Source: an uncultured Saprospiraceae bacterium (GTDB lineage: Bacteria > Bacteroidota > Bacteroidia > Chitinophagales > Saprospiraceae). Taken from it: DNA of 64,000 nt. The first letter of the stretch is position 1; the number at the start of each line of letters is the position of its first letter. Made by a program: the position numbers and the translations under genes. Below the pieces are notes generated by a model, which was not told the DNA's origin, searched no databases, and was given only the letters and a program-made list of their open reading frames with translations. The stretch spans positions 1-64,000 of the forward strand of contig CALLWB010000021.1 of NCBI GenBank assembly GCA_938016265.1, written 5' to 3'. This document shows, piece by piece, positions 17,115-45,871 of this stretch.

Positions 17115-20100
17115 ATGAAAAGCCTACTATTTAGCCTTCTTTTTCTGTTCTCCATAAGTCCTTTTATCGTTATGAGCCAGTCGGTCACCTGGGGACCAGC
17201 CTCTCCACCAGGCCAAGCGACAAATCTGATTACATACACCGGAACAGGAACTGCCACTTTTGAATTTACAAACGGTGCAACTCCATTATCTAATGCAACG
17301 ATGGAGGTTGAATTGGCTACTGGGGTAGAATACATCGCCGGAACCTTAGTCGCAACAACGAGCGCGTCAGCCACAGTAACAGAAAATTCGTCTACTGGTG
17401 ACAATATCGCACTTTTTACAATTGGCAGTTTAGCAACTGGAGAAAGTGTCCTGTTTACCTTTGGCAGACAAGCTTCTTGCATGGCAAGGACTCATAAAGA
17501 ACAAGGTGGTACCTTTTCGGATATTTGCCACGTTTTTGAAAACGGCACAGAACTAACGTATACCAACAATAATGGAAGTCCATACTCCGCAGATTATGAC
17601 GTTTTCTCTGCCAACCTTGTGCTAGGGACGGTAGCGCAGACTCCTGGATCTTCAACTGTGGTCGGAGCAACAATCAATCGAGCGTTAACTATTATTAATG
17701 GCAGTTTTGGGGAGGCAGATGAGTTTTGGTATAAGGATGATCACACAACTGCCAATTTATCAATAACCAATATTCTAATAAATAATGCACCGATACCAGC
17801 GTCCAACATCACCAATACTTTAACTAATCTTGAGATCCACTTTGATGCAGCCCTTATAGCACTGATTGATGGCAGCATGACAACAGTAGGCAATGGCAAC
17901 TCCCTTTTTGAGCGAGATGAATTTTTTAACCTTTCCTACGACATTACTCCTTTAAATTGTGGAGTGAATTATGCCATACCCTCCAACTTGAGCGTTTTTT
18001 ATGGACCAGATATACTAAATGAATGTTCCCCTTCAGGGAATGGTTCTACAAGTATTACTATAGAAAATGGAACTCCAGAAGTAGTCATTTCAGGGGCGGT
18101 AAATCCAAGAGTTGACTTCTGTGGGTCCACCACACATTCTGTCACCTACACCAATAATGGAACAAGTTTAGAGGATTTTGCAAAAGACATTACTTTTTTC
18201 ATAGGATTACGACAAAACAGTTCTTTTCTATCCACGCACAACAACGTATCTATGTGGGGAGGAAGCCGGTTTGGCGTGAAGAATTTTTCAAACATTACTA
18301 TTGGGGGAAATGTTATCGTTGCCCCTCAAATTGGTGGACTTGCAAATACGAGTATAGATTACATACCGCATGATTATTTTACCTCAGATCCGGATGGTTC
18401 TGGTGGATTAGAAGACCTTGATGGGGATGGTTTTTTTGACGATTTGGGACCTGGAGATTCAGTTACAATAGGTTTCGATATCACCATTATCCCATTGACT
18501 GTAGCTTGCGGTAATAGTCCTGCAACACAATATATTATGTGGGAACATATTTCGATAGATGGTGCCTGGTTAAATCAATGTGGAGATTTGCAAACGCCTA
18601 AACGACAAGAATTTTCTTATGTTAATCAAATCAGAAACTCTTCGAATTCAACCTTTGTAGATGGTCCGACGGATATTCAGGATGGTGGTAATTTTGAAGT
18701 AACTATTAAGCCACACCTTGCTACGAGTGTATTTTGTAATGGTGAAAATGGATCAACAGGGGCAGATGTTTCCTGGTTGGTAAAAGCAATATTACCGCCT
18801 GGTGTTTCCTTGCAACCTGGAGCTACTACAGATGCAACTTTAGCAAACTACAATCCTTCAATTTATCAATCCAACGATACTGTTTATTATACCATTAATA
18901 GGTATATCTATAGATACTTTACCTTTCCACTAGTGATGGATTGTAGTCTTTGGGATGGGACCACTCCATTTGCAATTGATTTTGTAACTACCTATGATTG
19001 TGCTGGATGTTATGTTCAGGATATTCATTGTGAATCAATAGAAATTGTTCCGCATTGCCCGAGCAACTGTGCCGGAATTACAACAGACGGATTTACCGCA
19101 GAAAGAACAACTGCGGGATGGACGGATAATACAAAATCGACCCCTGTTATCTTGACAAAAGGCATTCATGCAATAGATAAAATTCTGCCTTTTGATACGA
19201 TTCGTATAACTGCAAAAGGGCATGTTTCTGATACGCTCTCTGATAATTTATATTTGAGAATGAAGTATTCTCCTGAATCCGAGGATGATATTTTTGATTA
19301 TGTATCGGGATCAATTACAATTTATGATCTAGATGGAGGAACTGGAAACATTAAAAAAACATTCCCAATTACAACTTCTCCAATAGTTACAAGTCCTGTT
19401 ACCGGTTCTTATGTTTGGCAGTTTGATCTCTCTGGATATTTGGCTTTAGTAGGCCCTGCTTTTACGCTAGGAAGTGGCATGCTATCAGACTCTTTTGAAG
19501 TAAACCTAAATGCCATTTACAATACCAACTCTAATCAGTTGTATTATGAAGTAAATGACTTCAGAAGCGATTTTTTCATGTTTAATGCTACTAATGATAC
19601 CTTAAGTTGTGATAACTATGGAACAAGGATGGGATATACTGGATTTGCAGTCCTTGGTGGTGGGCAGACGATCACCATGCAAGGGTGTAATGCTCATACA
19701 ACAAGAGGTTTTTCCACCTGGGCAAATTATTCTGGTGATATTTTTCCTTCGGAATATAGGCCGATTCAACAGATTGATTCCATAATCTGGTCCTTCCCTG
19801 ATGGGGTTGACGTGCTTGGAGCTGGCCAATCTCAACTGGCTTGCACCGTTTCTTATCATTACAATAACTTAGGAGAAGTGGTAGTTACCCCAAATAGTGA
19901 TTATTTCCCAGCAGACTGGAGATCGACTTATTATCCGGGCTTTTTTCTGGAGGTTAATGGTTCTTGTGAATTGTATGAAGGGGTCAGTTTTGGGAAAATT
20001 AGGATATACAGAACGTTGTACAACTACCATCCAAACCCAGCTGTACATGAAATAAACATAAAAATTGATAATAATGATCCTAGAATAACTTACGTAAAAC

Positions 20101-22544
20101 CTGATGTGATTCTTACTCCAGAAGCGCAAATTCAGCAAGGAATAACGGATACGGTAAAATGGGATATTGATGTTTGCAATGGATCTGGTGGACTAGGAGT
20201 CAATTTTGGTTGGGTGACTTTTGATGAATCTACTAGCAATGGAATAACGATCACCAACGTTTATGACATCTCAACTGGAGTAGAAGTCCCTGTCTCCACT
20301 ACCAATCTAGGAGGATCGCTAGAGATGATACCAATCGGCGATATACTCGGCGGAGATTGCAAAACCCTGCGGTTGGTCGGTACTTACAGTGATTGCAGTG
20401 CAGATAGTATCAGCATTGATATGGGATGGAATTGTATTGACTATCCAACTGATTTAATGGATTTGAATAATTGCGATGCAAATACTTTTTTAAGTGTCGT
20501 ACCATTGATCGCACAAATGGATGCCACACTGACTAGTTTATCTGCTTCACCCGTTGACCCCATGGACCCCGCTGCTGGCAATTATAACAATAACGAAATT
20601 TCAATGTGCGAAACATTTCCTGTAGAATTGACCATTCTTAGTTCGGGTCTGGGGTCTGTTTTTGATATCAACTTAGACCTGTCAGTGCTAGGCTTAGGCA
20701 ATGGAATAATGTATGTTGCCAATAGCGCAACCATAGAGGTAGAAGGAATCGATGCACCAAACACTCCCAGGCCGATAGACGCTACCGGAGAAACCATCCT
20801 CACATCAAACACTAGTTCCACTATAAACATCCAGCTTTCTGATTTGGACAATGCCAACTTCGGATTAGGTATCGGACTTGCAGGAGCCGCCACCAACCCT
20901 GCAGGCAATGAAGTCACCATTCGTTGGCTCATGGAGTCCACCTGTGATTTTACTAGTGGAGAACAAATCAAAATTCAAACGTTCGGAAACGCCGCTTGTG
21001 CTGATGTCGCTCAAGGTGCTGGACAGATTACTTCTACTGGCGCACTAAATGTAGATGGGGTGATTTTACCATATGCCGCATTACTAACGACCAGCTTTTT
21101 GTCATCAAGCAGTTTTATCGGATGTCAGGCAGAAGAAAATCTAGCATTAGAAGTTTATGTTTCCGGTGGAACAACAGGCCTCACAGATTCTATGTTTATC
21201 ACCTTGCCAGAAGGACTTTCTTATGCTGGTACTCAAAACTGTACCTCTGCAAAATGCCCTGTTTATCTTGGTATGCAAATGAGCTCTGGGCAGGAGGTAT
21301 TGGTCTTTAGTTATCCTCCTGGTGTAAGTAATGAGACCATGACATTCGATATAGATGTGATTTCGAACTATGCAGTAACTTGCACCTCTTCGGAGATCGA
21401 TATCAAAAGTACAGTGAATGTAGGCGGTGTTTCTTGCGGTACAGGGACTTGCCCAAGTGTTAAAGTGATTGCAGGCGCTAAAACTGAATCAATAAATACG
21501 GATAAACCAGATTTGACAATCAGTTTTTCTTCTATTGTGTATAATGAGAATACAGATGAATTTAGTTACGACCTAACAATTATCAATGATGGTGCAGATT
21601 CCGATTCTTCTACCATAGTAGATATTTATTGCATGGATGCGAATGGAAATCCTGATCTTGCCGGAGGCGCAATGGGCACTTTGCAAATCCCTATTTTGAC
21701 GAGCAATCAAATACTAACCCTTACAGGTAGTTTTACAGCCGCAGGATGTGATGCCAACAATGGAATATATGCAGCTATAAATCCTACTGCCAGCACAGGA
21801 ACTCAAAATTGCATTTGTGAATCAAACGATACTCAATTTACAAATATCGATTTTGGTGTTCAGATAAATATTAAGGTTCAATTGGAAGGACCCTATGATG
21901 CTTCCACAAGTTTATGTACCGACAATCTTCGAACATCAAATTTGATTCCTACCACGGAGCCCTACTCTGCACTTGGATTCCAGCATTATTTTAGAGGAGG
22001 GGGAGAGATAGTTGACCCTTCGGTGTTTACCACAACTGGGCAAAATGCGATTGTAGATTGGATATTTGTAGAGTTGCGGGACCCAACCAGTTTTACTACG
22101 ATTGTAGCAACACGAGCAGCTTTACTACAAGCAGATGGGAATGTTGTTGATGTCAATGGTGATTCTTTTGTTTTCTTTGCTGGTGTCGCTGCCGGCAATT
22201 ATTATATCGTTGTCCGCCATCGAAACCATTTAGCCATCATGACGCCTGGGGCAATACCGTTGAGCAATTCAACGGCCTATCTGCATGATTTTACAACTGG
22301 ATCTGCCTATGGTGTTCTTTCGAATCTGAACGTGCAAAAGTCCATTGCTCCTGGCAAGTTCGGAATGTTCGAAGGCGATCTCGATCAAACGGGACTAATA
22401 AACGCAGCGGATCGAAGTATCGCCTGGAATTTCAGAAATTTAACTGGATATGCTCAACAGGACTCTAATTTTGACGGAGTGTGCAACGCCAGTGAACGAA
22501 GTATAGTTTGGAATAACAGGAATTTGTCATCCCAGGTTCCCTAA
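17115..22544 (+). CDS. Giant secreted beta-rich protein with IVDWV/HRNH/dockerin-like C-terminus
   Basis: ATG 17115 gives a clean signal peptide (MKSLLFSLLFLFSISPFI...); an upstream in-frame ATG at 17034 would bury it. The mature protein of about 1790 residues begins SVTWGP. Residues up to about 1590 consist of beta-sandwich-like segments with many paired Cys and conserved phrases such as WEHISIDGAW, with no enzyme motif. This body is paralogous along its length to the minus-strand protein at 40550-45871. The last 225 residues differ: they carry AIVDWIFVELRDP, VVRHRNHLAIMTPG, then two Ca-loop-like motifs (DLDQTGLINAADRS, DSNFDGVCNASERS), a dockerin-like arrangement. There is no type A or B T9SS domain, so this module may act as sorting or anchoring region. 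Probably a surface or matrix protein; function unknown. Confidence 0.85.
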   Translation: MKSLLFSLLFLFSISPFIVMSQSVTWGPASPPGQATNLITYTGTGTATFEFTNGATPLSNATMEVELATGVEYIAGTLVATTSASATVTENSSTGDNIALFTIGSLATGESVLFTFGRQASCMARTHKEQGGTFSDICHVFENGTELTYTNNNGSPYSADYDVFSANLVLGTVAQTPGSSTVVGATINRALTIINGSFGEADEFWYKDDHTTANLSITNILINNAPIPASNITNTLTNLEIHFDAALIALIDGSMTTVGNGNSLFERDEFFNLSYDITPLNCGVNYAIPSNLSVFYGPDILNECSPSGNGSTSITIENGTPEVVISGAVNPRVDFCGSTTHSVTYTNNGTSLEDFAKDITFFIGLRQNSSFLSTHNNVSMWGGSRFGVKNFSNITIGGNVIVAPQIGGLANTSIDYIPHDYFTSDPDGSGGLEDLDGDGFFDDLGPGDSVTIGFDITIIPLTVACGNSPATQYIMWEHISIDGAWLNQCGDLQTPKRQEFSYVNQIRNSSNSTFVDGPTDIQDGGNFEVTIKPHLATSVFCNGENGSTGADVSWLVKAILPPGVSLQPGATTDATLANYNPSIYQSNDTVYYTINRYIYRYFTFPLVMDCSLWDGTTPFAIDFVTTYDCAGCYVQDIHCESIEIVPHCPSNCAGITTDGFTAERTTAGWTDNTKSTPVILTKGIHAIDKILPFDTIRITAKGHVSDTLSDNLYLRMKYSPESEDDIFDYVSGSITIYDLDGGTGNIKKTFPITTSPIVTSPVTGSYVWQFDLSGYLALVGPAFTLGSGMLSDSFEVNLNAIYNTNSNQLYYEVNDFRSDFFMFNATNDTLSCDNYGTRMGYTGFAVLGGGQTITMQGCNAHTTRGFSTWANYSGDIFPSEYRPIQQIDSIIWSFPDGVDVLGAGQSQLACTVSYHYNNLGEVVVTPNSDYFPADWRSTYYPGFFLEVNGSCELYEGVSFGKIRIYRTLYNYHPNPAVHEINIKIDNNDPRITYVKPDVILTPEAQIQQGITDTVKWDIDVCNGSGGLGVNFGWVTFDESTSNGITITNVYDISTGVEVPVSTTNLGGSLEMIPIGDILGGDCKTLRLVGTYSDCSADSISIDMGWNCIDYPTDLMDLNNCDANTFLSVVPLIAQMDATLTSLSASPVDPMDPAAGNYNNNEISMCETFPVELTILSSGLGSVFDINLDLSVLGLGNGIMYVANSATIEVEGIDAPNTPRPIDATGETILTSNTSSTINIQLSDLDNANFGLGIGLAGAATNPAGNEVTIRWLMESTCDFTSGEQIKIQTFGNAACADVAQGAGQITSTGALNVDGVILPYAALLTTSFLSSSSFIGCQAEENLALEVYVSGGTTGLTDSMFITLPEGLSYAGTQNCTSAKCPVYLGMQMSSGQEVLVFSYPPGVSNETMTFDIDVISNYAVTCTSSEIDIKSTVNVGGVSCGTGTCPSVKVIAGAKTESINTDKPDLTISFSSIVYNENTDEFSYDLTIINDGADSDSSTIVDIYCMDANGNPDLAGGAMGTLQIPILTSNQILTLTGSFTAAGCDANNGIYAAINPTASTGTQNCICESNDTQFTNIDFGVQINIKVQLEGPYDASTSLCTDNLRTSNLIPTTEPYSALGFQHYFRGGGEIVDPSVFTTTGQNAIVDWIFVELRDPTSFTTIVATRAALLQADGNVVDVNGDSFVFFAGVAAGNYYIVVRHRNHLAIMTPGAIPLSNSTAYLHDFTTGSAYGVLSNLNVQKSIAPGKFGMFEGDLDQTGLINAADRSIAWNFRNLTGYAQQDSNFDGVCNASERSIVWNNRNLSSQVP

Positions 22545-22894
22545 CAAAAACATAGAAATTTTAGCAGTATACCAACAAAATATAATTTATTGTGCCACTG
22601 AAATCCTAAGGCTTATTGCTGTTGTTTTAAACGTCAATGGGTTCAATTCATTTCGATAGTGCAAAAAAAACACTTGTTTTTAGGGTGTTGTGCTGCTTGT
22701 GCAATGTTCGAATAATACAAAGGTGCATCATTATCAGGAAGATAATTTTATTTTAAAACCTATTTATTCTGTAAGGTTGATTGCAACTATTAAGTTTTTA
22801 TTTCGTCTAGTATATAGAGATGTTTCCTTTTTTCTGTTAAGTGACATACTTCGATAAGGAAAAGGTAACGAATTGACTGAAAATTTGATTGCAA
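22545..22894. other. Intergenic region before the CotH/cadherin-like giant
   Basis: 350 bases with no gene visible. It must hold the promoter of the downstream giant gene; CATACTTCG near 22848 resembles a degenerate -7 element but is not convincing. No terminator hairpin was found after the 22544 stop. Confidence 0.5.
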
Positions 22895-25800
22895 ATGACT
22901 GACACTACTACTTGGAATTTCAAAGGCATTTTGAAGTTCTTGATTTTCTTTATTGTATTGGGTATTAATAGTACCTTATATGGTCAAGGACCAATCGTAA
23001 TCAACGAGATCAATTACCGATCTGTTGAGGTCCAGAGTAATATCGATTTTGTAGAGCTGCACAATGTTTCTGCGAATTCTGTAAATATTTCTAACTGGAT
23101 ATTAACAAATGGGATTAATTATGTTTTTCCCTCAGGTACTTCTATTCCCAGCGGCGGCTATCTTGTTGTGGCTGCTGATCCAGCAAACTGTCAGGCCGTA
23201 TTAGGCTTTTCCAATGCCTATGGACCCTATTCCTCTAGCTTGAGCTCTGAAGATGACCTTATCGAATTGAGAGATAATGCCTTCGTTTTAGTTGATCTTG
23301 TAGAATACGCTAGCTGGGACGAATGGCCAAGTGTTCGTCACCTTAACGATGGAGATTCACCAGTTTCCATTCAAAAAATTCACCCGCTTCTTAATGGCAA
23401 TCATGGGGGTAGCTGGAGTAGCAACATTCCGACTCCCAATGCACAAAACACCTCTGTATATCAGTCAAATCACGTCGAATTACCAATAGTAAAAAAAGTA
23501 TCCAAAACGCCCAACAATCCAACTGCAGGTGTCAACATGCTGATCGAAGCAGAACTCAAAAATCTATCTGGTATTCTAGGCACCTTTACTGTGACACTTG
23601 AATATCAGGCGATGCTGGCAGGTTCCTATATCGGAAAATCAACGGCAGCTTATGCAACAAACTGGACGCCAATCCCAATGCTGGACAATGGAGTAGGAGC
23701 CGACCCAATTGCAGCGGATGGAATTTTTTCCGCCCACATTCCCGCCAATATCCAGGTACACAGAAGTTTAGTTCGCTACAGAGTCAAAATACAACATTCA
23801 AATGGCTACGGAAGAACCTTCCCTGATCAAAACCATGAAGAAAGCAATTATGCCTATTACGTTTATAACGGTCATGCAAATTTTAATGGGTACAGTTTTG
23901 CTGGATTACCAGATTTGCAAGAAATGACAGTCATCACTACTGCAAATCATACCGAACTCTACATGGGAGACGGAGGACCTAATACCAATCAATATCAAGG
24001 CAAGAGTTATCTGGGAGAAGGAGCAATGATTTATCAGGGCAAAGTATATGACCATATTCGCTTTAGACCAAGAGGAAGTGGGAGTAGAAGAGATAGAGTC
24101 AAACCGGGATTGAAGTTTGATATGAATAATGCGCACAGCTTCTCTACACAAAACGATTGTGGAGAATTGTACAAAGAAAATCGAGGAAAATTAAGACTCT
24201 CTGGTGGCTGGGTAAATGATATCGCTGGACATGGGATAACAGAATCCATTGTCTACAAAGTATTAGAACTTGCTGGGGGACTTTCCAGAAACACCGACTA
24301 CGCACAATTAAGAATCGTTGATTCTAGTACTGAAACTGGAAATGCTGGAGACTTCTGGGGATTGTTTTTAATTCAAGAAGATTTTAATGGCAATTATCTT
24401 AAAGAACATCAACTAGCAGAAGGGAATTTCTGGCAGACCGAGCGTCCCGTAAGAGATCGGACTATTGATTACCTTGGCGATTTTCCAGGTTCAGCGACCA
24501 CGCCCACCTTTGCACCACAAACACAAACAAATGGGAGTTTTACCATCAATAGCTTAGGTCATTTAGATCTATTGTTTGGGGATAAAATCGCAGCAGTTTC
24601 TAATGGTTTGAATGGGAATAACTATATCGGAAAACATAGTTATATGGAATATTATGACTCCGGTACCAGTTTGCATCATGGTTGGTGGGGAGATTTTGAC
24701 AATACTTTCGGCTCTCCATTTGATGATGTAGTGGTATTCCCTCGTAGTCAGTCGAATTCAAGTGCGGTCTACGATAATGACATGCTTATTCCTGCTACGA
24801 TGTTGATTGATTTTCAAAGCAGGTTTCGGTCATTTTATGATTTGTTTCTCAATGTAGAACAACGTGAATACCTGGTGGACAAGGAAGCCGAGAAAATATT
24901 TACTCCAGGAGTAGCAGATGATTGGGCTGAATTGGACCATAGCCGATGGCTGCAAACCTACGATTTGACTACTTTTGACAATCATGTCAATTGGTATAAA
25001 ACCTGGTTTTCGAATAGATCGACTTTTATTGCAAATGATGCAACACATGGTATTTTGGATGTGAATATTCCAAGCAAGCCAACCGTAAGTCTGATAGGAA
25101 GCAATGCACTTGACAACTTAACTTTTTCCAACTCCAGCTATCAAGGAGTCAATGGCTTTGCAGCCTTAGAGTGGAGAGTAGGTGAGTGGAGTGACCCCAA
25201 CAATCCTGCCTATTCAACAGATTGTGAACCAATTTATGAAGCTCAAACTAAATGGCAAAGTGGAGAGATCACTTCCTTCACCAGCAGTTATACCATCCCC
25301 GCAGATGCAAACCTGGAAGCAGGCAAAACCTACAAATTCAGAGTACGCTACAAAGATGCTACCGGAAGATGGAGTCACTGGTCAGCTCCACAAAGTATTG
25401 TACCAACTCCAGCAGTCAACTATGTCGGACCAAATTTAGTCATCAACGAAATTTTATACGATCCTACTTTGGAATGCGGCCAGGAATACCTGGAGTTATA
25501 CAATAACACGCCAAACACAGTTGCACTCAAAAACTTTCAGTTTACGGAAGGGATTACCTATCATTTCCCTGCAAGTGCTTCTTTGCCTGGATATGGCTAT
25601 TACCTAATTGCAAGAGATAGTATTGATTTTTTCCATAAATATGGTTTTTATCCTGATGGTGAATATCGTGGTGCATTGAGCAATACTGGAGAAGAAATAA
25701 TCCTTACTGGTCCCTTCAATGTATTGATTGATAATGTTGCCTATTCCAATCAACATCCCTGGGATTTGGCGGCTAGTGATGATGGACGAGCGCTCGAGTT

Positions 25801-31060: not shown

Positions 31061-31235
31061 TAGATTTTCTATTAGGAATGGAGTCTACTCAAGGAAAGTC
31101 GATTTTTTACTTGCTACAGTAATATGAATGTTTTTTATAGTTAAGTGCCTTTTTTGACTTATTACATGTTGTTCAATTGGGAATTTCCCTGGTAAATACT
31201 TTTAGTTTGTCCAGTTAATTTTCTAATTTAATAGG

Positions 31236-34001: not shown

Positions 34002-34209
34002 GGGTAGAAAATATTAATGCAGGAATACGTGCATATCTTGAATAAAAAATAGTTTAGGTTGGGAACCACCTCGAAACCTTTCGTCATTGCCCACATTCAC
34101 GCATTCAACAAACAAACACAAGAAATTTTTAAATTCCAATCATTTTGTATTATATTGATAATGAACCCTATAGTGCTTTTTTCATATTAAAAACACGAGT
34201 AATAGCATT

Positions 34210-37200: not shown

Positions 37201-40200
37201 AAAGCCGCCGCCATCATCAAATCAACTGACCAGGGAACGACCTGGCAGGTGATCAATGCTCCGGATGGTATCGCCTTCGGTGCCAATCAAATGGTGCGAC
37301 AGGGCAATTGTTTGGCGGTAAATCCAAACAATCCAAATGAACTTTGGATTGGTGCACGAGGCAAGGGACTTTGGAAATTGAACGGCACCTCCTTCACACA
37401 AGTTAATACTGGGCAAATACCAGAATCAACCCTAGCAAACCAGGGTATTCGGGGGATCGTTTTTGATCCGAATAATACCAATCGGATTTACATCGGCTAT
37501 TATGGCAAAGGAGTATATCGGAGCACAAATGGAGGAAGTTCATTTAGTTTGATCCCTAATTCTCCCACCAATGTAAATGACCTCAGTCTTTCTGCGAATG
37601 GGACCAAACTGTATGCTGCTTGTAGAGAACAAGGCGTATATCGGTTGAACACTCCGCAGTCGGCTACTTCCTGGGTGCAAATCAAGTCGGGGACCGCCAC
37701 TGCGCCATATTTTACGGTGACAGCCAGTCCTTCAAATGACAATGTCGTACTAACTTGTATAAGTGCCTGGAATGCGCTCAATGGCTACAAATTTCAAGTG
37801 TCAAATGATAGTGGGGACAATTGGATTTCTAAAAATCACTCCATCAATCAACTATATGACTGGCATCCAGTTCAGTATCCTGGTTCTGCAATTGCCCAGA
37901 TTTCCTTCGATCCTACACCTGGGTCTAATACCGTTTATTTTGTCGATTGGTTTAGTATTTTTAAAACCACAAATTTTACAGCAAATCCTATCGTTTGGGA
38001 CAATTCAGAAAGCAAAGGACACGAAGAGGTGGTTACCCAATCTCTGGCGGCCCCTCCTAGCAATACAAACAATACATTGCTCTATTCTGCTTCAGCAGAT
38101 GTCACTGGTTTTGTCCACAATAATCTGGTTGACTATCCCCTAAAAAATATCAAGCAACAAACCCTCAACATGCCCAATAATTTAACTGCAAATGAAGGAA
38201 CAAGCTTTGATTTTTGCGAATCAGATTCGGAGTTCGTCGCCTTTGCTAATTGTAGTAAATGGGAAGGTACAAATGCTGGACTTTTCTTCTCGGAAAATGC
38301 TGGAGTAGATTTTTACCCTGCAGCAGGTTATTTAGCGGGTTGGGGGCGTTCTAAAATTGCTGTCAGTTCCTCCACTAAACAAAACATTGTAGCGGTGACG
38401 AATGGTGGAATTCGGTACTCTACCAACAAAGGATCCAGCTTCTCTTCGTCGAATCTGACCATCCCTTTTGGCTTTGGTATCTGGGAAGGAAATATCGAAC
38501 CCATCGCAGCAGACAAAGTTTTGGGAGGACAGTTTTATGTGTATGATTATTCTAATGGAAAATTTTATCGGAGTACGAATAATGGTGCTACCTGGACCAA
38601 TACAAGCACTCTGTCTGCCAGCTCGCAATGGGCCGGTGGAGTAGCTGCTACTCCAGGGAAAGCCAACCACGTGTGGGCTTATCTCAATAACCGTGGACTT
38701 TTTCAAAGTACAAACGGAGGCAACACCTGGACCCAAAAAACCGCCCTGGAAAACGCAAGGACGTTCGCAATCGGAAAGGCAGCACCAGGAAGTAACTACC
38801 CAACGTTGTACACTTATGGCAGACTTGCTGGAGATGATAACTATTTCGTTTATCGGTCAATTGATGAAGGCAGCACCTGGGAAAAAATAAATGATGAATC
38901 TAACTTTTTAGGCAATCAACCAGGTAAAATGGCCGCTGATAGAAATGTGTTTGGCCGAGTTTTTATCTCGCAAGGTGGCTGGGGTGTTTTTTATGGAGAA
39001 CCAACCCAAGTTTGTCCAACTGAAGGCACTAGTTGCGATGATGGAGACCCAACCACCTTTGACGATAAGTACGATAACAATTGCCAATGTATAGGGGACA
39101 CTGAAAATATCTATGATGCTTTTATCCGTTGTAATCCGCTTAATCCATCCATCAATGGAAACGTTGGCCCAATTTGGGATCAGGCGATTGATTATTCGCT
39201 AGAGAAGTTTGTTGGAACTGCAGTTCCTATCACTGATTTATCTGCCGAATTTGGTGTGATTTATAATTCGGATTATTTGACACTTTACGTGAATGTGGTG
39301 GATGATGTCGCCCAACGAGATTCAGGAAACCAGCCATACAATGATGACGCAATTGAAGTATTCCTGGATCCAGATAACAGTCGGAGTACGACTTACGATG
39401 CCAATGATATCCAACTGGTTTTTGGTCGGGGAGATGCTTCGTTTACTGCTTATCAAGGTGGGTTTTCTGCTACGATACCAGGAGTGGTGCATGCCCAACA
39501 AGAAAACTTAGGAGGTTATTCCTTAGAGTTACAGATTCCCTGGAGTTCTATCGGCGTTCAAAGCGTTAGTGAAAATCAGAAAATTGGTATTGAAGTACAA
39601 GTAAATGATGACGATGATGGCGGCCAAAGAGATCATAAATTGGCTTGGAATGATGGAACAGATAATGCCTGGAGTAATCCATCCTTATTTGGCGTTGGGA
39701 ATCTGGCTCCTTGTCACCCGGCCAATCTATGGGCTTATCTACAAGGTCCATTATTTACAGGAACGTCCCCTACTTATGGTCGTACCATGCGTGCAAATCT
39801 GAACAAACAGTTTCAACTTTTGCCTGGGATGAGCGGGAGTATAGAGGATGGTCAGCCTTACTCAATCGCACCCTGGAGTTATTTTGGTAATGAAGGAGTT
39901 GGATATACGGATGCCGACTATTTGAGGTTGGAACGCCTGCACGGTAACTTGCCGATTGTGGATTGGGTACTGGTAGAATTCAGAACGGGCCTTGCTGCAA
40001 ACACCAGAGTTGTCCAACAAGCAGGTCTAATGCTGAGTGATGGTCAGATTGTTTTTGAAGACCCTTCTGTCTTTGGCACTCTGAATGGCGCTTATTACCT
40101 CAAAATTGACCACCGGAATCATATAGGAGTGCTATCTAGTGTGCCTGTCAATATTTCGAATGGTACTTTCCGCCATGATTTCAGATTGCAAAATTCTTAT

Positions 40201-40449
40201 GCCAATGGTGGGGTAGGGATGACGGAAGTCGCTCCAGGCAAATGGGCACTTTTTGCGGCTAATGGTGATCAGCTTGCTGACGGTCAGTTTTATGATATCA
40301 ATGCCTCTGACAAACAACTCTGGTCCCTGGACAATGGTAATTTTAATACCTACCGAAGTTCTGATTTTACGATGGATGGCGATATTAATGGATTGGAATT
40401 GATATTGTTCAATATGAATAATGGGGTGTTTTCTACCGTGGAGCGGTAG
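34210..40449 (+). CDS. Giant secreted fusion: purple acid phosphatase, GH74-like propeller, CBM9-like domain, IVDWV/dockerin-like C-terminus
   Basis: Signal peptide 1-20 (MKQIFIIALLISLF...). Residues about 25-300 resemble a beta-propeller (repeated DDAGRIYIADLG-like phrases). A purple acid phosphatase follows: FnIII-like entry (about 302-390, GPYLQTATPTSIVLKW) and metallophosphoesterase core (398-690) with the metal motifs GDVG, LLGDNAYDSG, GNHEY, YWHHAPYTRG and GGHSHVYERS all intact. Then a DNRLRE-like beta domain (715-890), a GH74-like propeller (about 896-1600; WKQLPIGGGGYITGM, KTDIGGAYRFD, several NGGxTW sialidase-type turns), a CBM9-like domain (about 1637-1834) and the C-terminal module (IVDWVLVEFR, DHRNHIGVLS, DGDINGLE). 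The phosphatase is likely active by motif; the GH74-like part may bind or cut glucans. It probably acts outside the cell on phosphorylated or polysaccharide material. Confidence 0.88.
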   Translation: MKQIFIIALLISLFLTFTYGQPYVNLVNQGAFPANIHESSGLAYFNDTGVWTHNDSGGSNEAFRTNTTGQLQNTLTIANATNNDWEDMTQDDAGRIYIADLGSSAQNGNRTIYRFNQNNNTTSVNAETIHIQFSDTEIYDCESMFYFNNSLYFFSKFYLSSVNDPNYGYVRMYKLSNLTPNTAQNRHTAQYVGRKYIGISTTDLNGDEQANGATGAAISPDGTRMAIIGIQVVSIFTNFSGDDFFGGTMTQLAFNLKSQKEAVVFKDNDNLYITDENWNNATTGWLRTLNIASYLPQNSVSVSRGPYLQTATPTSIVLKWRTNPATDTKVWYGTDPNNLNLSETTAPNVTNHEIKISNLNPNTKYYYAIGNAAGQLQGATSDYYFKTHPTPGSSLNSRIWILGDVGKQAPNTHPQSVRDAFLTHNNGQSPDMILLLGDNAYDSGLDSEYQTALFQNRFENQFRNTVIWPCPGNHEYANSSPVAPYYDIFALPTNGEAGGVASGTEKYYSYDYGNAHFISLDSDNNNTGPTSQMISWLQQDLQANTQDWVIVYWHHAPYTRGSYDSDTQPFMKAMREQVVPILEQYEVDLVLGGHSHVYERSFLIHGHHGNAATFNNSMKIDGGNGRENDDGTYSKNTNNEGTVFATLGCSANAYAGNGLNHPAMFTGFVDHGSAYMDINGDRLNFYFLDENGNIDDSFTLDQNNPNPGNTTTIATTVNAGSDDIEENELTGNMYTNSSDIELVNDGANNGNQTIGIRFNNVNIPAGATITNAYLQFNAKESDSDASSLSIHAQLTPSSPPMDITPYWLSGQTSTIASVAWQAPAWTFGNIYPTPNISTVIQELVDLNGFNENSSITIIITGTGSRTAHSYDGDPTKAATLVIDYETPTNPPDPTIPGPYAWKQLPIGGGGYITGMVIHPQNPNLRFLKTDIGGAYRFDPIGNKYDQILNFPFDDHEIGNGNDAENDGTNNLYGIDGIAVHPTNTNIVYMAADKRLQNKAAAIIKSTDQGTTWQVINAPDGIAFGANQMVRQGNCLAVNPNNPNELWIGARGKGLWKLNGTSFTQVNTGQIPESTLANQGIRGIVFDPNNTNRIYIGYYGKGVYRSTNGGSSFSLIPNSPTNVNDLSLSANGTKLYAACREQGVYRLNTPQSATSWVQIKSGTATAPYFTVTASPSNDNVVLTCISAWNALNGYKFQVSNDSGDNWISKNHSINQLYDWHPVQYPGSAIAQISFDPTPGSNTVYFVDWFSIFKTTNFTANPIVWDNSESKGHEEVVTQSLAAPPSNTNNTLLYSASADVTGFVHNNLVDYPLKNIKQQTLNMPNNLTANEGTSFDFCESDSEFVAFANCSKWEGTNAGLFFSENAGVDFYPAAGYLAGWGRSKIAVSSSTKQNIVAVTNGGIRYSTNKGSSFSSSNLTIPFGFGIWEGNIEPIAADKVLGGQFYVYDYSNGKFYRSTNNGATWTNTSTLSASSQWAGGVAATPGKANHVWAYLNNRGLFQSTNGGNTWTQKTALENARTFAIGKAAPGSNYPTLYTYGRLAGDDNYFVYRSIDEGSTWEKINDESNFLGNQPGKMAADRNVFGRVFISQGGWGVFYGEPTQVCPTEGTSCDDGDPTTFDDKYDNNCQCIGDTENIYDAFIRCNPLNPSINGNVGPIWDQAIDYSLEKFVGTAVPITDLSAEFGVIYNSDYLTLYVNVVDDVAQRDSGNQPYNDDAIEVFLDPDNSRSTTYDANDIQLVFGRGDASFTAYQGGFSATIPGVVHAQQENLGGYSLELQIPWSSIGVQSVSENQKIGIEVQVNDDDDGGQRDHKLAWNDGTDNAWSNPSLFGVGNLAPCHPANLWAYLQGPLFTGTSPTYGRTMRANLNKQFQLLPGMSGSIEDGQPYSIAPWSYFGNEGVGYTDADYLRLERLHGNLPIVDWVLVEFRTGLAANTRVVQQAGLMLSDGQIVFEDPSVFGTLNGAYYLKIDHRNHIGVLSSVPVNISNGTFRHDFRLQNSYANGGVGMTEVAPGKWALFAANGDQLADGQFYDINASDKQLWSLDNGNFNTYRSSDFTMDGDINGLELILFNMNNGVFSTVER

Positions 40450-40487
40450 GAGAATTGGTATAGGGTTTAGGAGGACAGTTATTCACA

Positions 40488-40522
40488 AATAAAAAAGACC
40501 CCTTCAGAATATTCTAAAGGGG
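40488..40522 (-). terminator. Rho-independent terminator of the 45871-40550 gene
   Basis: On the minus strand a hairpin with GGCCCCTTT and AAGGGG-type arms (40499-40522, one mismatch) is followed by a T run (40488-40496). It lies 28 bases past the minus-strand stop. The T run is only on that side, so it acts mainly on the minus-strand transcript between two convergent giant genes. Confidence 0.8.
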
Positions 40523-40549
40523 CCTTGGTGACTATTCTATATTCCTCGA

Positions 40550-43500
40550 CTATTCAAAAACTATAAATTTTATTGATTTAAAACTAGATGAAGCTAAGTT
40601 TCTGGTTTGAAGGATGTAAGTCCCTGACCCAAGATTCTTTGTATCTATTGTAATAGTGCTAGAAGATTGACTATCTACTGTCATTTCTTTGACTACCTTT
40701 CCTACCATATCGACAATTCTTATTTGGATATCTCCTGTGGAACTTAGGAAGGCTTCACCCAACGCTAAGGTTAGAGGGGCACCCACAAAAACCGGATTTG
40801 GAGATAACGCAAATTCATCACCTTTATTACAGTTTTCAAAGCGAGTAACCTCCACCTCTGAAAGTTTGTATGTCCCATCAAGATCAACAAGTTTTAATCT
40901 ATAGTAGACATTATTGTCAATTACATTGGTAACGTTATCCTTATAGTCATAGCTGGAGGAAGTAGTTGCATCTCCTTTTCCAGTCACATTGTTTATTGTC
41001 GTGTAATCTCTGCCATCAAAACTTCTCTGAATCTCATAGTGGCTAAAGTTGACTTCCGATTCCGAAGTCCAATTCAAAATTGCAGTACAAGATGCTGTTT
41101 CGACAGTGAATGCAGAAAGCTCAACTGGCAAGATATTGGATTCAACTGTTAAGGAACTAGTCCCGCACATACAATTGGTGGCGCCCGTACTTGAGGTCGG
41201 CGTAACAATAGCTGCGAACCCGGTAAGATAGTTGCAACTTGTGCCCGGGAAAGTACCTGACATCATTTGCATACCTCCAGTGGTGATAACAGGAACGGCA
41301 ATTGTAGTTACAATACCAAGTCCTGCATCAATATCATCAGACGTCGCATTCGCACAATAGATGTCAATTTCTGTAGGACTATCGGTATCAATTCCTGCAT
41401 TCTGGACTTCTAAGGTATACTCATACATTTGAGTGTTGATATTGTAAGTAAGCGTAGTGAAATCTAGGCTAAATTCTGGTTTTTCTAATACACTTCCAGC
41501 TTCTACCACTCCTGTTATTACTTTTGAACTTGGACAAGCGACCAAATCACAGAATAGACCGCCAATTTGAGCCGTGCTTTTTATCTCAGTGGTCGCAGCA
41601 GCACATGTTGAATTGTCTGTAGAAGTCACTTCAAAATCAATATTGAAATCCGGGTTTACCAGCCCTCCAGGGTAATAAAAGACAACTACATCTCTTCCAA
41701 GTACAGATCGCACCTCAACAAAGGTTGGACAATTTACAGAGGTACAGTTTAAGCTTCCATTAAATGATAATCCTTCCGATAAGGTAACAAATAAGGAGTC
41801 TGTACTGGCTGTTGTTCCACCAGAAACTTTTGCATTTATGTCTATCGTTTTGGTGTCTCCGCAGCCAGAGAATACCTCATCCGGTGAAAAGCTAGAGGTC
41901 AGTATCGTAGTATACGGTAAGGTCACCCCATTAATTTTTAAATCTGAACTAACAATCTTTTCTCCATTACCTGTAGCGACATCAGAACAAGGTGCATTTC
42001 CAAAGGTTTGGATAGATAATTTTTCTCCACTGGTCATTGGACACTCCGGCTGCAATAGCCATCTGACCGTTACTTCATTTTGAAGAGCGTTAGTTCCGGC
42101 TCCTGTAAGACCGTTGTTAGCGAAATTAGCAGCATCTAATTCAGCAAGCGTAATATTCCAAACTGCACCGGTTGCGCCTGCAAACGCAGCTTCTCCTGCA
42201 GGGTCGATTGGTCTCGGAGTGTTTGGCAGATCAATTCCTTCTACTTCAATAGTTGCACTATTAGGGATGTAAGTAAGTCCAGCTCCCAAATCTGGTATGA
42301 TAATATCAAAGTTAATATCGTAGATAATTGCACCACCAGAACTGATTATTGTGTATTCAACCGGAAAGGGGTCGCACATGTCAACAGTGGATTGTCCATA
42401 GTTGCCGGCTGCCGGATCTAGTGGGTCTGCAGGCGTGGTGGCCAATGGTGTGATCGTAGAAGCCATTTGTGCATCTTCTGGTACCACTCTCAAAAAGTTG
42501 TCTGCAGCACATTCAGGAAGACTGGCAATATCTGTAGGATATTCATGGCAATCCCAACCATAATTGATTGGCAAATCATCTGGTGCACAATCGGTATAAG
42601 TGGCATATAGTCGCACTGTTCTGCATTCTCCACCAGCGAGGTCACTTGTCTGTATCAAATAAAGCCCTCCGGTTAAATCAACAGGTGTAACAGCAACCTC
42701 AGAACCTGAAGTGATATCTGCTACTCTGACTACTTCGATTCCATTACTTGCAGATTCGTCGTAGGTGATCCATGAATACTCTACTCCAAGATCACTAGTA
42801 CTATTGCATATCTCCACTTCCCAAGCAATTGTATCGGCTATACCTTGCTGTATTTGTCCTAACGGAGTTGCAAGGATGGCTGGTTCGATATAAGTGAATC
42901 GGGGTGTTGTATTATTTGACTCAATGTTAGTTTCATGAACAGCTGGATCTGGATGATAGTTGTACAGTGTTCTATGTTGGGTCACAGGGTAAATATGAAT
43001 TCCTGGGTCCAATTCGCAAGTACCAGTAACATAAATATCAAATCCTGGATAGGATATTGTTGTCCAATCTCTTGGTGAATAATCGCTATTTGGTTTGATG
43101 ACTAGCATTCCATTGGCGTCTATGTAATAAGTTGCTGTTCCATTAGAATAAGAATTGGCCGTTATATTGGTGACCTCTACTCCATCTGGCAAATCCACTA
43201 CTACTGAATCTAATTGTTCTATAGGTCGATATTCATCCGGGAAAATATCGCCTGCGTAGTTGTACCAGGTGGCATATGTTCTCAAATAAATTTCATTGCA
43301 TCCTTTTAATGTAACTTGATTACCACTACTACTTAAACTAAATCCGTTGTAAAATAACGGCGCTCCATAACTATTACATCCTCGCTCAGAAGGTACATCG
43401 TCATTCATAAAGAAGAACGCTCTGAAATTGCTGACTGAATAGTAGTTCGGTCCTGTATTCTGGTTGAAAACAGCTTTTAACACTACTTTAAATGAATCTG

Positions 43501-45871
43501 CTTCCATGCCCTCTCCAATCACATAGGAAGGATCAATCATAGAATGGTAACTTGAAAGATCCAGCAACCAATTGAAAGTACTGGCGGTGACCGCTGTAAC
43601 TGTAGGAGCAGTGGAAATTGGGAAGGTATACTCCGTGTTTCCGTAAGCACCGTCCAAATCGTAAAAGGTAATTTCTCCTTCTATATAATCAAATATGTTG
43701 CCTCCAAAGTCTGGAGTATATTCTAATCTCAAAAATAAGTTGTCTGTTATAGTATCAGAAACATGCCCTTTTGCTGTCAACTGAATAGTATCAAATGGAA
43801 GTATTTTATCCAGGGCATGTACGCCATCCGTCAAACTAACCGGAGTGGTCATTGTTGCATCCGTCCAACCTGGGGTAGTTCTGACAATATCAAAATCATC
43901 CGTTGTAACACCTGTACAAGGAGAAGGACAGTGAGGAATGGTTAAAAAGGATTCACAATGAATGTCGTCTTTATAACAAGTGCCACATTCATATGTAGTA
44001 ATAAAATCAAATGATATTGGATTGGAGCCATCCCACAAACTACAATCTAGCGTTAAAGGAAAGGTGAACCATTCGTACTGGTATCGATTTATGGTATAAT
44101 ATGCAGTGTCATTTGATTGATAGATGGTTGGTGCATAGGGCAAACTTGTATCATCTATTGCCGGATTTGCTTGCAAGGAAACACCAGGAGGCAACACACA
44201 TTTTACTGTCCATGTTACATCTGCGCCAGTCAATCCATCTCCTCCATTGCATCCAAGTGAGTTAGAAAGATGGGGTTTGATTTTTACATCAAAGTTATCG
44301 CCATCATTGACATCAGAAGGACCTTCTACAAACGTAGAACTGATATAATTTCGAATAAAATTTCTATAACTAAACTCTTGTCTTAGTGGCACTTGATCCG
44401 CGCCACACTGGTTTTGCCAAGCTACATCTGCAGAGATATGTTCCCATTTCATATAATCAACCCTTCCTTCTCCACAAGCGTGCTGAATTGGGTCTGTTGT
44501 TATATCAAATCCAATCACAATAGATTCTCCTGGGCCAAGGTCATCATAAAATCCGTCCGCATCCAAATCTTCAAGTCCTGATCCCGCAGCATCTGGATCG
44601 GATGTTAAAAAATTAGGTGGTAAATAATCGATCATTGTCGAATATAAACCTGCGATTTGAGAGGTAGGAAGTGGATTGCCATCTATAGTGAAGTTGGAAA
44701 ATTGCCTTGTCCCTTGATAATCTCCTCCCCACATGGTAATGTTGGATAGTGTTGAAACTGCAGAATAGTTGTAGCGTAATGCCATAAAAACAACTAGATC
44801 CTTCGCAAAATCATCTGCTGCAACTCCATTGTTCGTAATTCTAACGGAGTGTGTTGATGTTAAGCAAATGTCTACTCTTTCATTTGTTACCGCTTGAAGA
44901 GTAATAAGTGGTGTTCCATTGGTTAGCGTCACGCTTGTTGAACCTGTACCTGAAGGAGCACATTCCGTATTTACATCTTTGCCATAATAGGCTTTGAGTG
45001 CAGAAGGTTGTGTATTGTCTGAACCACAAGTTAGTGGTGTAACATCGTAGGAAATTGTAAAAAATTCATCTTTTTCGAAAAGTGCATTGGCATTACCATT
45101 AGTACCGGCTGCTCCATCAATAAGTGCAATAAGAGCGGCATCGAAATGTATAATTACCTGGCCACTATTTTGAGTGATGTTTGCTGTGGGAATTACTACT
45201 CCATTTATTTCGAAGTTGGAGAGCGCTATTCCTGTAGCAGAAAATACATCTTCATACCAGAATTCATTTATAGATCCAAAACTACCGTTTGTGATGTTTA
45301 GTGAACGGTTGATTACTCCACCGACGGCTGTAGCTGAGCCAGGTGTTTGAGTAACTGTACCAAGAACCAAGTTACCATATGTTACATCATAGGTAGCGGA
45401 AAATGGGCTAGCTCCATTATTCGAATAGGTAACTTCAGTACCACTTTCGAATACATGACCGACATCAGTAAAAGTTCCTCCAGCAGATTTGTGGTCTCTG
45501 GCAGCGCAGGTAGCTGTTCTATCAAAGGTGATCGTTACCCGTTCTCCAATATCCAGTTTGCCAATATTAAATACTGCAGGATTGTCTCCGGTAATACAGC
45601 CCTCCGTTACAATGGCACTGCCACTGGTAGAAAAAACCAAACCTCCTTCCAGGTATTCAATACCTGTACCTAGATTGACTTCAATGGTGGCATCTGTGAG
45701 GGCGGTACCGTCATTTGTAAACTCAAAAGTTGCCGTTGTTGCCTCGGAGTAAACTGATATATTATTTCCACTTCCTGCAGGGTTTGTTGGGCCCCAGGTA
45801 ACTGATTGGGCGTAGGACGAAGAATATCCAACAATCAGAAAGGAAAGTAATAAAATCATTAATTTTTGCAT
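40550..45871 (-). CDS. Giant secreted beta-rich protein with type A T9SS C-terminal domain
   Basis: 1773 residues: signal peptide ending SSYAQ (about residue 21), then SVTWGP and a body of about 1500 residues paralogous to the protein at 17115-22544 (for example ITFDRTATCAARDHK, FLTSDPDAAGSGLEDLDADG, KWEHISADVAWQNQCG, CPSSKVITG). After a shared NCMC motif the two proteins part. This one has an FnIII-like segment (LSAFTVETASCTAILNW...) and a type A T9SS sorting domain with FALSPNPVFVGAPLTL, VRIVD-like MVGKVVKEM and GTYILQT. Export by T9SS is therefore well supported; function is unknown. It is transcribed towards the 34210 gene and ends in its own terminator. Confidence 0.9.
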   Translation of the reverse strand: MQKLMILLLSFLIVGYSSSYAQSVTWGPTNPAGSGNNISVYSEATTATFEFTNDGTALTDATIEVNLGTGIEYLEGGLVFSTSGSAIVTEGCITGDNPAVFNIGKLDIGERVTITFDRTATCAARDHKSAGGTFTDVGHVFESGTEVTYSNNGASPFSATYDVTYGNLVLGTVTQTPGSATAVGGVINRSLNITNGSFGSINEFWYEDVFSATGIALSNFEINGVVIPTANITQNSGQVIIHFDAALIALIDGAAGTNGNANALFEKDEFFTISYDVTPLTCGSDNTQPSALKAYYGKDVNTECAPSGTGSTSVTLTNGTPLITLQAVTNERVDICLTSTHSVRITNNGVAADDFAKDLVVFMALRYNYSAVSTLSNITMWGGDYQGTRQFSNFTIDGNPLPTSQIAGLYSTMIDYLPPNFLTSDPDAAGSGLEDLDADGFYDDLGPGESIVIGFDITTDPIQHACGEGRVDYMKWEHISADVAWQNQCGADQVPLRQEFSYRNFIRNYISSTFVEGPSDVNDGDNFDVKIKPHLSNSLGCNGGDGLTGADVTWTVKCVLPPGVSLQANPAIDDTSLPYAPTIYQSNDTAYYTINRYQYEWFTFPLTLDCSLWDGSNPISFDFITTYECGTCYKDDIHCESFLTIPHCPSPCTGVTTDDFDIVRTTPGWTDATMTTPVSLTDGVHALDKILPFDTIQLTAKGHVSDTITDNLFLRLEYTPDFGGNIFDYIEGEITFYDLDGAYGNTEYTFPISTAPTVTAVTASTFNWLLDLSSYHSMIDPSYVIGEGMEADSFKVVLKAVFNQNTGPNYYSVSNFRAFFFMNDDVPSERGCNSYGAPLFYNGFSLSSSGNQVTLKGCNEIYLRTYATWYNYAGDIFPDEYRPIEQLDSVVVDLPDGVEVTNITANSYSNGTATYYIDANGMLVIKPNSDYSPRDWTTISYPGFDIYVTGTCELDPGIHIYPVTQHRTLYNYHPDPAVHETNIESNNTTPRFTYIEPAILATPLGQIQQGIADTIAWEVEICNSTSDLGVEYSWITYDESASNGIEVVRVADITSGSEVAVTPVDLTGGLYLIQTSDLAGGECRTVRLYATYTDCAPDDLPINYGWDCHEYPTDIASLPECAADNFLRVVPEDAQMASTITPLATTPADPLDPAAGNYGQSTVDMCDPFPVEYTIISSGGAIIYDINFDIIIPDLGAGLTYIPNSATIEVEGIDLPNTPRPIDPAGEAAFAGATGAVWNITLAELDAANFANNGLTGAGTNALQNEVTVRWLLQPECPMTSGEKLSIQTFGNAPCSDVATGNGEKIVSSDLKINGVTLPYTTILTSSFSPDEVFSGCGDTKTIDINAKVSGGTTASTDSLFVTLSEGLSFNGSLNCTSVNCPTFVEVRSVLGRDVVVFYYPGGLVNPDFNIDFEVTSTDNSTCAAATTEIKSTAQIGGLFCDLVACPSSKVITGVVEAGSVLEKPEFSLDFTTLTYNINTQMYEYTLEVQNAGIDTDSPTEIDIYCANATSDDIDAGLGIVTTIAVPVITTGGMQMMSGTFPGTSCNYLTGFAAIVTPTSSTGATNCMCGTSSLTVESNILPVELSAFTVETASCTAILNWTSESEVNFSHYEIQRSFDGRDYTTINNVTGKGDATTSSSYDYKDNVTNVIDNNVYYRLKLVDLDGTYKLSEVEVTRFENCNKGDEFALSPNPVFVGAPLTLALGEAFLSSTGDIQIRIVDMVGKVVKEMTVDSQSSSTITIDTKNLGSGTYILQTRNLASSSFKSIKFIVFE

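Follow-up and report, generated by a model that had tools for sequence, protein, structure and literature searches.

The window, that is, the whole stretch of 64,000 nucleotides analyzed here (positions 1 to 64,000 of contig CALLWB010000021.1, assembly GCA_938016265.1, from an uncultured Saprospiraceae bacterium), carries two giant paralogous genes on opposite strands, at 17115-22544 (+) and 40550-45871 (-), with translations of 1809 and 1773 amino acids, respectively. BLASTP aligned the two proteins with identity in 805 of 1571 columns (51%) and 5 gaps. The initial annotation had taken them to be alignable from SVTWGP onward; alignable they are, but the homology begins earlier, as the alignment opens at residue 1 of both proteins and includes their signal peptides. 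Signal peptide and giant body make up residues 1 to 1570 of the first paralogue (17115-21824, +), and the body of the second lies at 41159-45805 (-). The two part at a junction consisting of an NCIC motif and a short linker (21807-21860, +). NCIC starts at residue 1565 and its counterpart in the 40550 protein, NCMC, at residue 1566, near the end of the BLAST alignment. From residue 1400 to 1580, each step of 20 residues contained 4 to 10 identities; in a forced global alignment past the motif, there were 0 to 8 per step as the gaps grew, and past residue 1760 there were no identities. Thus, pairwise alignment upheld both the homology of the bodies and a breakpoint after NC(I/M)C, as had been proposed, and the swap of tails between the two proteins is confirmed.

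At its C terminus, the 40550 protein has a T9SS type A sorting domain (40562-40747, -) that passed both curated cutoffs (PF18962, 31.9 bits versus 27; TIGR04183, 23.2 bits versus 23), in agreement with the initial annotation. The stretch ahead of it (40772-41128, -) looks FnIII-like by eye, as had been described, but gave no Pfam fn3 match at an E value of ≤1. The 17115 protein ends in a two-part module, referred to here as the X-dockerin. An X-module-like beta-sandwich part containing IVDWV and HRNH (21861-22367, +) was delimited with an AlphaFold model, fold matches, and an alignment of 65 copies, with the border to the next part placed by eye. The dockerin part (22368-22541, +), defined by loop conservation and PDB sequence-profile matches, has two calcium-type loops (ca. 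22377-22412 and ca. 22461-22496), and the protein ends right behind it. The 65-copy alignment and the conserved loops confirmed this ending as it was first read. A cryptic T9SS domain in this C terminus, the finding against which the swap had originally been set, was looked for and not found: there was no match at an E value of ≤1 to type A (TIGR04183/PF18962) or type B (TIGR04131/PF13585) models in Pfam and NCBIfam, and a home-made type A profile run over the six frames of 21401-23100 detected no type A domain or relic behind the gene.

Versions of the C-terminal 227 residues of the 17115 protein are also present in two other proteins of the window, both with the NNG dockerin subtype. One is the tandem-repeat adhesin at 22889-31060 (tail at 30374-31057, +; profile match, E value of 2.4e-66) and the other the phosphoesterase/CBM9 protein at 34210-40449 (tail at 39727-40446, +; E value of 4.1e-59). 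With its cadherin-like repeats and a phosphoesterase with CBM9, the X-dockerin cargo of the window looks extracellular. Between these two genes, a GH30/lectin protein of the same cluster ends in another kind of tail, a 3-coathanger stack (GCX_COOH; 33849-33995, +; NF045639, 36.2 bits versus a cutoff of 26).

The giant body is present in the same genome in four close and two distant copies. It ends in the X-dockerin in the 17115 protein and on contig C18, in type A in the 40550 protein and, over the cutoff, on C80, and in HYR-like repeats without a recognized tail on C46; the C90 copy is cut by the contig end. Body matches were found in 32 of 120 genomes of the family. Among 12 tails of these relatives inspected by eye, there was a type A motif in seven (G399 C5 and C72, G463, G466, G460 twice, and one G468), a weaker one in the other G468 copy, a type B-like tail in two (G419 and G399 C46), and no tail motif in the two bodies on G399 C17. 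In a maximum likelihood tree of 15 bodies, the 17115, C18, and C46 copies grouped together with 100/100 support; their sister was the pair of the 40550 protein and G399 C5 (both type A), and the type A body of G463 fell outside. Because the bodies with an X-dockerin branch from within the type A bodies, type A is likely the older state in this clade and the X-dockerin the newcomer, in a tree that is midpoint rooted, takes its direction from the type A neighbors, and does not resolve the order inside the X-dockerin clade.

Abundance, fold, and distribution of the C-terminal module

At least 150 copies of the module were found in the genome that contains the window (best 150 of 200 candidates; the weakest had an E value of 1.1e-15). 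We sampled every second rank, which after merging gave 66 regions outside the window; 58 were taken, plus two for the body tails (the C18 copy is L003), and seven weak copies were left out. The profile returned 72 matches, two of which repeat window genes, leaving 70 distinct copies. The module lies within 5 residues of the stop codon in 64 of the 70 and within 15 in 68, the exceptions being L011 (at least 66 further residues) and L015 (37). We kept 68 copies (L001, L004, L006, and L011 were dropped), and 65 of the 68 were aligned. One glycine, the D and W of IVDWV, the second H of HRNH, and the first D of the second loop are invariant, and the dockerin subtypes are WNNRN-like (38 copies), NNG-like (22), and others (5). 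Signal-peptide-like starts were recognized with a crude script in 61 of 63 module proteins of this genome with the N terminus in view; the remaining two have a hydrophobic N-terminal stretch by eye. No lipobox was found in these 63 proteins, the script revealed no export signal other than the Sec signal peptide in module proteins, and none of 68 matched the home-made type A profile.

The C-terminal position held in other genomes as well. At 30 loci of a phylum survey (L068-L097, one of them from the same genome), the match ended 0 to 60 residues before the end of the frame, with L091, broken by a stop, as the sole outlier. At 79 named loci with 98 matched stretches, the tail behind the module did not exceed 83 residues, bar L208, L219, and a piece in L241. 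The first two have at least 127 and 221 residues after the module, with a further domain that we take to be FISUMP-like, and the L241 piece is a weak dockerin match upstream of that protein's own module.

The AlphaFold model built from the 65-row alignment (pLDDT 96.4, pTM 0.92) is a beta-sandwich followed by two helices (residues 182-190 and 210-218), each behind a loop. The calcium-type loops that, with a helix behind each, mark a dockerin are preserved across the 65 copies: the first D in 57 (first loop) and 65 (second loop), and the last D/E in all 65 in both. In a Foldseek search against the PDB, the nine best rows were type II X-dockerins or scaffoldin chains with one (E values of 5.8e-5 to 2.3e-3). 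Likewise, the eight best VIA entries were type II cellulosomal X-dockerins or chains with one (Z 9.5-10.6, next row 5.1; root mean square deviation [rmsd] of 3.7-4.2 over 141-146 residues). These matches span the whole module, including an X-module packed directly before the dockerin. By sequence, most top rows of a PDB profile search were cellulosomal proteins or named dockerins, with a best E value of 0.0019 and only the dockerin half aligned. Dockerin_1 (PF00404) was found in 17 of the 65 modules at an E value of ≤1, always below threshold (best, 0.0035); the window copy scored 11.5 bits versus a gathering cutoff of 22.9. No NCBIfam family appeared in more than one of the 65 members, neither Pfam nor NCBIfam has a model for the 227-residue tail, and TIGR04183, TIGR04131, PF18962, and PF13585 were absent among the matches of the 65 modules at an E value of ≤1. 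The only T9SS tail in the VIA list was that of mirolase (Z 3.8), level with other sandwiches; no T9SS type A domain stands above this value in the list, an absence that proves nothing. The model thus indicates an architecture shared with clostridial X-dockerins, the descent of the X part being a separate matter.

The genome that contains the window encodes SprA, at least 150 type A domains over the cutoff, and 41 type B domains over the cutoff. In a phylum sample of 395 genomes, the module was found in 53 and SprA in 304, including all 53 with the module; at most the best 7 module candidates per genome were scored, which makes absences soft. SprA also had a match in all 40 module-bearing genomes reached via named loci (39 over the cutoff); these sets of 53 and 40 genomes were counted separately and may overlap. 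A strong reading of the co-occurrence had to be rejected: the hypergeometric probability (2.9e-7) ignores kinship, and SprA occurs in 166 of the 171 genera sampled. Because SprA is nearly everywhere in the phylum, its co-occurrence with the module speaks of compatibility, not dependence. Module-bearing genomes carry the labels Bacteroidota, Ignavibacteria, Kapaibacterium, Calditrichota, KSB1, and Cloacimonadota, and the carriers among named loci include one metagenome-assembled genome (MAG) labeled Deltaproteobacteria as well as Saprospiraceae-labeled MAGs. Two culturable bacteria, Kordia periserrulae DSM 25731 and Phaeocystidibacter luteus, also carry the module. Copy numbers are patchy, with at least 74 in each of three genomes of the genus, 65 in one other family member, 36 in one member of another family, and none in 25 of 40 relatives.

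Candidate receptors: cohesin and XPD proteins

A Pfam cohesin (PF00963) search of the same genome gave one match just under the cutoff (22.9 versus 24.1 bits), and this domain used as a query retrieved six copies, itself included. The family stays below the PF00963 gathering threshold: the whole proteins on C48 and C76 scored 19.2 and 18.7 bits, and no PF00963 match was listed for the remaining four. A model built from the six sequences (pLDDT 80.7) has the cohesin fold. Of the 50 top Foldseek rows, 48 were named cohesins or cohesin-bearing chains, the other two being an interaction module of C. perfringens and a fibrillar-adhesin domain. The VIA list was similar, with cohesins or cohesin-bearing chains in 49 of 50 rows (Z 10.6-15.6) and 2o4e, named an interaction module, in the remaining row; the best match had a Z of 15.6 and an rmsd of 2.0 over 133 residues. 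All six proteins end, directly behind the cohesin domain, in PF18962 over the cutoff (40.3 to 68.6 bits versus 27). By eye, each also has a dockerin ahead of the cohesin (PF00404 was over the cutoff in one and weak in two). At two of the six loci, the cohesin gene adjoins a module gene, directly after it on C48 and directly before it on C73. As a universal partner, this family was ruled out: it occurs in 13 of 395 phylum genomes, only 4 of which are among the 53 with the module, and because it is so rare, it is not the general partner of the module.

Another type of candidate came from the genes next to module genes. We use XPD as a label, coined here, for an N-terminal domain of ca. 165 residues. 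At 20 loci from 20 other genomes (L105-L124), an XPD gene lay directly downstream of a module gene, on the same strand, in 19; the matching figure per module gene, 19 of 22, only describes these loci, because their neighbors went into the profile itself. Thirteen of the loci (L105-L116 and L122) represent one orthologous operon, six (L117, L118, L120, L121, L123, and L124) have other contexts, and L119 is the exception. Ten XPD neighbors were scanned with PF18962. It was over the cutoff in L118, L120, L121, L123, and L124; among the five scanned from the orthologous operon, it was below the cutoff in L106 and gave no match in L105, L110, L116, and L122. The type A-like ending of the 13 orthologous neighbors was recognized by eye only, and the L117 neighbor runs off the stretch.

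The 79 named loci were compared with control genes from 20 windows at arbitrary places in nine genomes of the non-named set. Of the genes directly behind a module gene, 30 of 87 carried a type A-like tail by a home-made profile (28 of them on the module gene's strand), against 10 of 55 upstream genes and 2 of 294 controls; the respective values for XPD were 11/87, 0/55, and 0/294. Fisher tests of downstream versus control genes gave 2e-19 (type A-like tails) and 5e-8 (XPD), and downstream versus upstream tails gave a P value of 0.04, all with genes that are not independent, as several named loci share a genome. Among the 11 XPD matches, L215#2 is itself a module protein, that of L243 is on the other strand, and one is not independent because L202 and L124 are one and the same stretch; a comparison of the middle 200 bases revealed no further overlap between named and non-named loci. 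The other 57 of the 87 downstream genes have no type A-like tail. No PorP/SprF-like shuttle was recognized by eye among the listed neighbor clusters that module genes share.

When XPD profiles were iterated against 864 decoy tiles, two seeds gathered 28 and 30 of 41 members with 6 decoys each, and two other seeds gathered 18 and 15 of 41 with 1 and 0 decoys. The 6 decoy hits lie in five module proteins of the window's genome that start with XPD, and we count them as genuine XPD members; the 22889 adhesin gave a seventh, which appeared in the last round from another seed. Because these hits are module proteins beginning with XPD, this genome also appears to encode [XPD]-[X-dockerin] proteins, resembling adaptor scaffoldins. 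XPD as a cohesin found no support by sequence (hhalign probabilities of 4.1 and 1.2% to a cohesin alignment), and sequence searches against known families and solved structures gave no consistent match, with one of 16 members matching DUF7243 at 5e-4.

Proposed export and anchoring of X-dockerin proteins, and known systems

The explanation that we favor, and consider somewhat better than an even bet, is that X-dockerin proteins dock on receptors exported by the T9SS, either cohesin or XPD proteins, so that a plug and socket would keep the giant protein at the surface. It builds on the computed fold of the module, its C-terminal place and abundance, the nested swap, the company of SprA, the joining of cohesin and type A domains, and the type A-tailed neighbors. 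From these, we infer the binding to a receptor and the hold on the surface. The X-dockerin would bind the cohesin or XPD of a receptor, and the receptor would exit through the T9SS by its own type A domain, which PorU would remove while coupling the receptor to surface polysaccharide. The X-dockerin protein would then be held via the receptor instead of by a sorting domain of its own. It might cross the outer membrane by one of two candidate routes, through T9SS recognition of its own or together with the receptor. The initial annotation proposed that the module can replace a T9SS domain. This stands as far as place is concerned, as both occur on one same body; with regard to function, it is more likely that only the anchoring half of the T9SS domain's job is replaced, since the modeled fold is that of a cellulosomal docking module and there are receptor candidates that join cohesin to type A. 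Several observations count against docking: the same genome sets six cohesins and few known XPD proteins against 150 or more module proteins, clustering of T9SS genes may by itself explain the neighborhoods (10 of 55 upstream genes have type A-like tails), and L011, L208, and L219 depart from the C-terminal place. The Pfam scan of the six cohesin proteins strengthens the receptor side, and the weak tails of the 13 orthologous neighbors weaken it.

A related scenario is secretion in trans: the X-dockerin would bind its partner, a cohesin or XPD protein, while both are still in the periplasm, and the type A domain of that partner would take the pair through the translocon onto the surface. Such a route would account for three observations: SprA was present in every module-bearing genome tested, known sorting domains were not seen together with the module, and the gene of a type A-tailed partner is often the immediate neighbor of a module gene; we rate it as unlikely, but if true, one T9SS sorting domain would serve many proteins carrying none, and the idea of what such a domain can do would change. 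Alternatively, the module itself could be a T9SS sorting signal, a further class of C-terminal domain read either by the translocon or by a dedicated shuttle, with the dockerin fold incidental or a later means of anchoring. Its alternation with types A and B on one body, its C-terminal place in most copies examined, the presence of SprA in all module-bearing genomes of both sets (53 and 40), and the lack of any export signal seen beyond the Sec signal peptide (crude script) would all fit. However, none of the four T9SS models appeared among the matches of the 65 modules at an E value of ≤1, the fold is that of a docking module, with mirolase as a lone T9SS tail no better than other sandwiches, and receptors exported by the T9SS give another reason for the co-occurrence with SprA, so that we hold this possibility, too, to be a doubtful one.

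Ordinary domain shuffling would make the module a generic calcium-binding adhesion module acquired by recombination and involved in neither export nor anchoring. Free exchange of ends is usual among modular secreted proteins: the C46 copy of the body finishes in HYR-like repeats with no recognized tail, and a neighboring protein of the window ends in a 3-coathanger domain. Nevertheless, one class of module in at least 150 copies, C-terminal in nearly all of the 70 proteins of many lengths examined, alternating with sorting domains and flanked by genes that are far from random, is not what random shuffling would be expected to leave, and we find this explanation improbable. Permanent residence in the periplasm, with dockerin-based assemblies formed there, would agree with signal-peptide-like starts that come without a known outer membrane export signal. 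It seems highly improbable given the extracellular-looking cargo of the window (cadherin-like repeats and the phosphoesterase with CBM9) and the type A domains over the cutoff on candidate receptors (6 of 6 cohesin proteins and 5 of 10 scanned XPD neighbors).

A tail for which Pfam and NCBIfam hold no model is thus present in at least 150 copies in one genome and across several phylum labels. If the module docks on T9SS-exported receptors, these bacteria would have a plug-and-socket surface in the style of cellulosomes, built on the T9SS, and some surface proteins would escape secretome predictions limited to types A to C. With each tail present on one of two natural paralogues, docking could then be tested directly. 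Among the open PMC papers listed in literature searches, none was seen to describe this tail or to present X-dockerins as a substitute for T9SS domains. The excerpts of that literature that touch on the subject describe T9SS C-terminal domains of types A, B, and C (PMC10202324), T9SS shuttles (PMC12618676), the removal of the type A domain by PorU while the protein is coupled to surface polysaccharide (PMC11969387), cellulases of M. roseus without dockerin (PMC3534657), and dockerin- and cohesin-related clusters in a seagrass metagenome (PMC8547425); further related excerpts are in PMC5831590 and PMC6247017.

The closest precedent in these excerpts is “Candidatus Stygibacter” (Cloacimonadota), with an inferred cellulosome-like complex of one large tandem-cohesin scaffoldin with a C-terminal domain and of C-terminal dockerins (PMC8542988); these excerpts are silent on an X-module, a swap with sorting domains, and XPD-like neighbor genes. 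The module resembles the T9SS C-terminal domains of types A, B, and C in its place in the protein and in occurring in the same genomes and on the same bodies (type A, and type B by eye), but no sequence relation to types A and B was found, and its 227 residues compare with models of 72 and 85 positions. The six domains ahead of type A share the cohesin fold with cohesin modules (PF00963), from which they differ in scoring below the Pfam cutoff and in their fusion to a T9SS domain.

In clostridia, type II X-dockerins anchor cellulosomes to the cell surface, and the scaffoldins carry one such tail. The module shares with them (PDB 2b59, 4u3s, and 5m0y) the order of X-module and dockerin and a whole-module fold match (Z of ca. 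10), with 14 to 19% identity in the structural alignments and a sequence-profile match in the dockerin half only. Unlike the clostridial tail, it belongs to a T9SS-bearing bacterium, with at least 150 copies in a single genome, on adhesins and varied enzymes.

X-dockerins and other tails in the window

The X-dockerin, the X-module-like beta-sandwich and two-loop dockerin that close the 17115-22544 protein, was also found at the end of the 2723-aa protein encoded at positions 22889 to 31060, which contains LTD and tandem-95/cadherin-like repeats, and at the C-terminal end of a phosphoesterase with a purple acid phosphatase N-domain and CBM9 (34210-40449). In the alignment of 65 modules from the genome of the window (A1), the dockerin halves fell into a WNNRN-like class (38 copies), which includes the 17115 tail, and an NNG-like class (22), to which the tails of the 22889-31060 and 34210-40449 proteins belong, with 5 others. 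These classes may mark different receptors.

Between these genes, a GH30-like enzyme with ricin lectin domains (31236-34001) has a 3-coathanger stack domain (NF045639) as its tail, and therefore three kinds of tail adjoin one another in the window. A type B (CHU_C) tail was observed on the SprB-repeat protein at 991-3726.

Unusual tail arrangements

The clearest exception to the C-terminal position of the X-dockerin was seen in stretches L208, L219, and L250, where it is followed by a further domain, which we take to be FISUMP-like. On contig C46 (stretches L002 and L008), a copy of the giant body, a member of the X-dockerin clade, continues into HYR-like repeats and then a stop codon; no recognised tail was found on this copy after the repeats. 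A subtilisin-like protein (assigned by eye; L241:1-3699) has a dockerin and a cohesin-like stretch and ends in an X-dockerin, whereas dockerin-cohesin proteins of the window's own genome have a type A tail.

XPD and XPD-like proteins

A 290-aa gene on contig C36 (L173:17759-18628), a short distance after a module gene, encodes an N-domain resembling, by eye, XPD (the N-terminal domain of proteins encoded beside many module genes) and a tail that is type A-like by profile. Proteins of the window's own genome, 420 to 588 aa long, start with XPD and end in an X-dockerin (L033, L043, L057, and L059, the last with two such genes), an arrangement that resembles adaptor scaffoldins.
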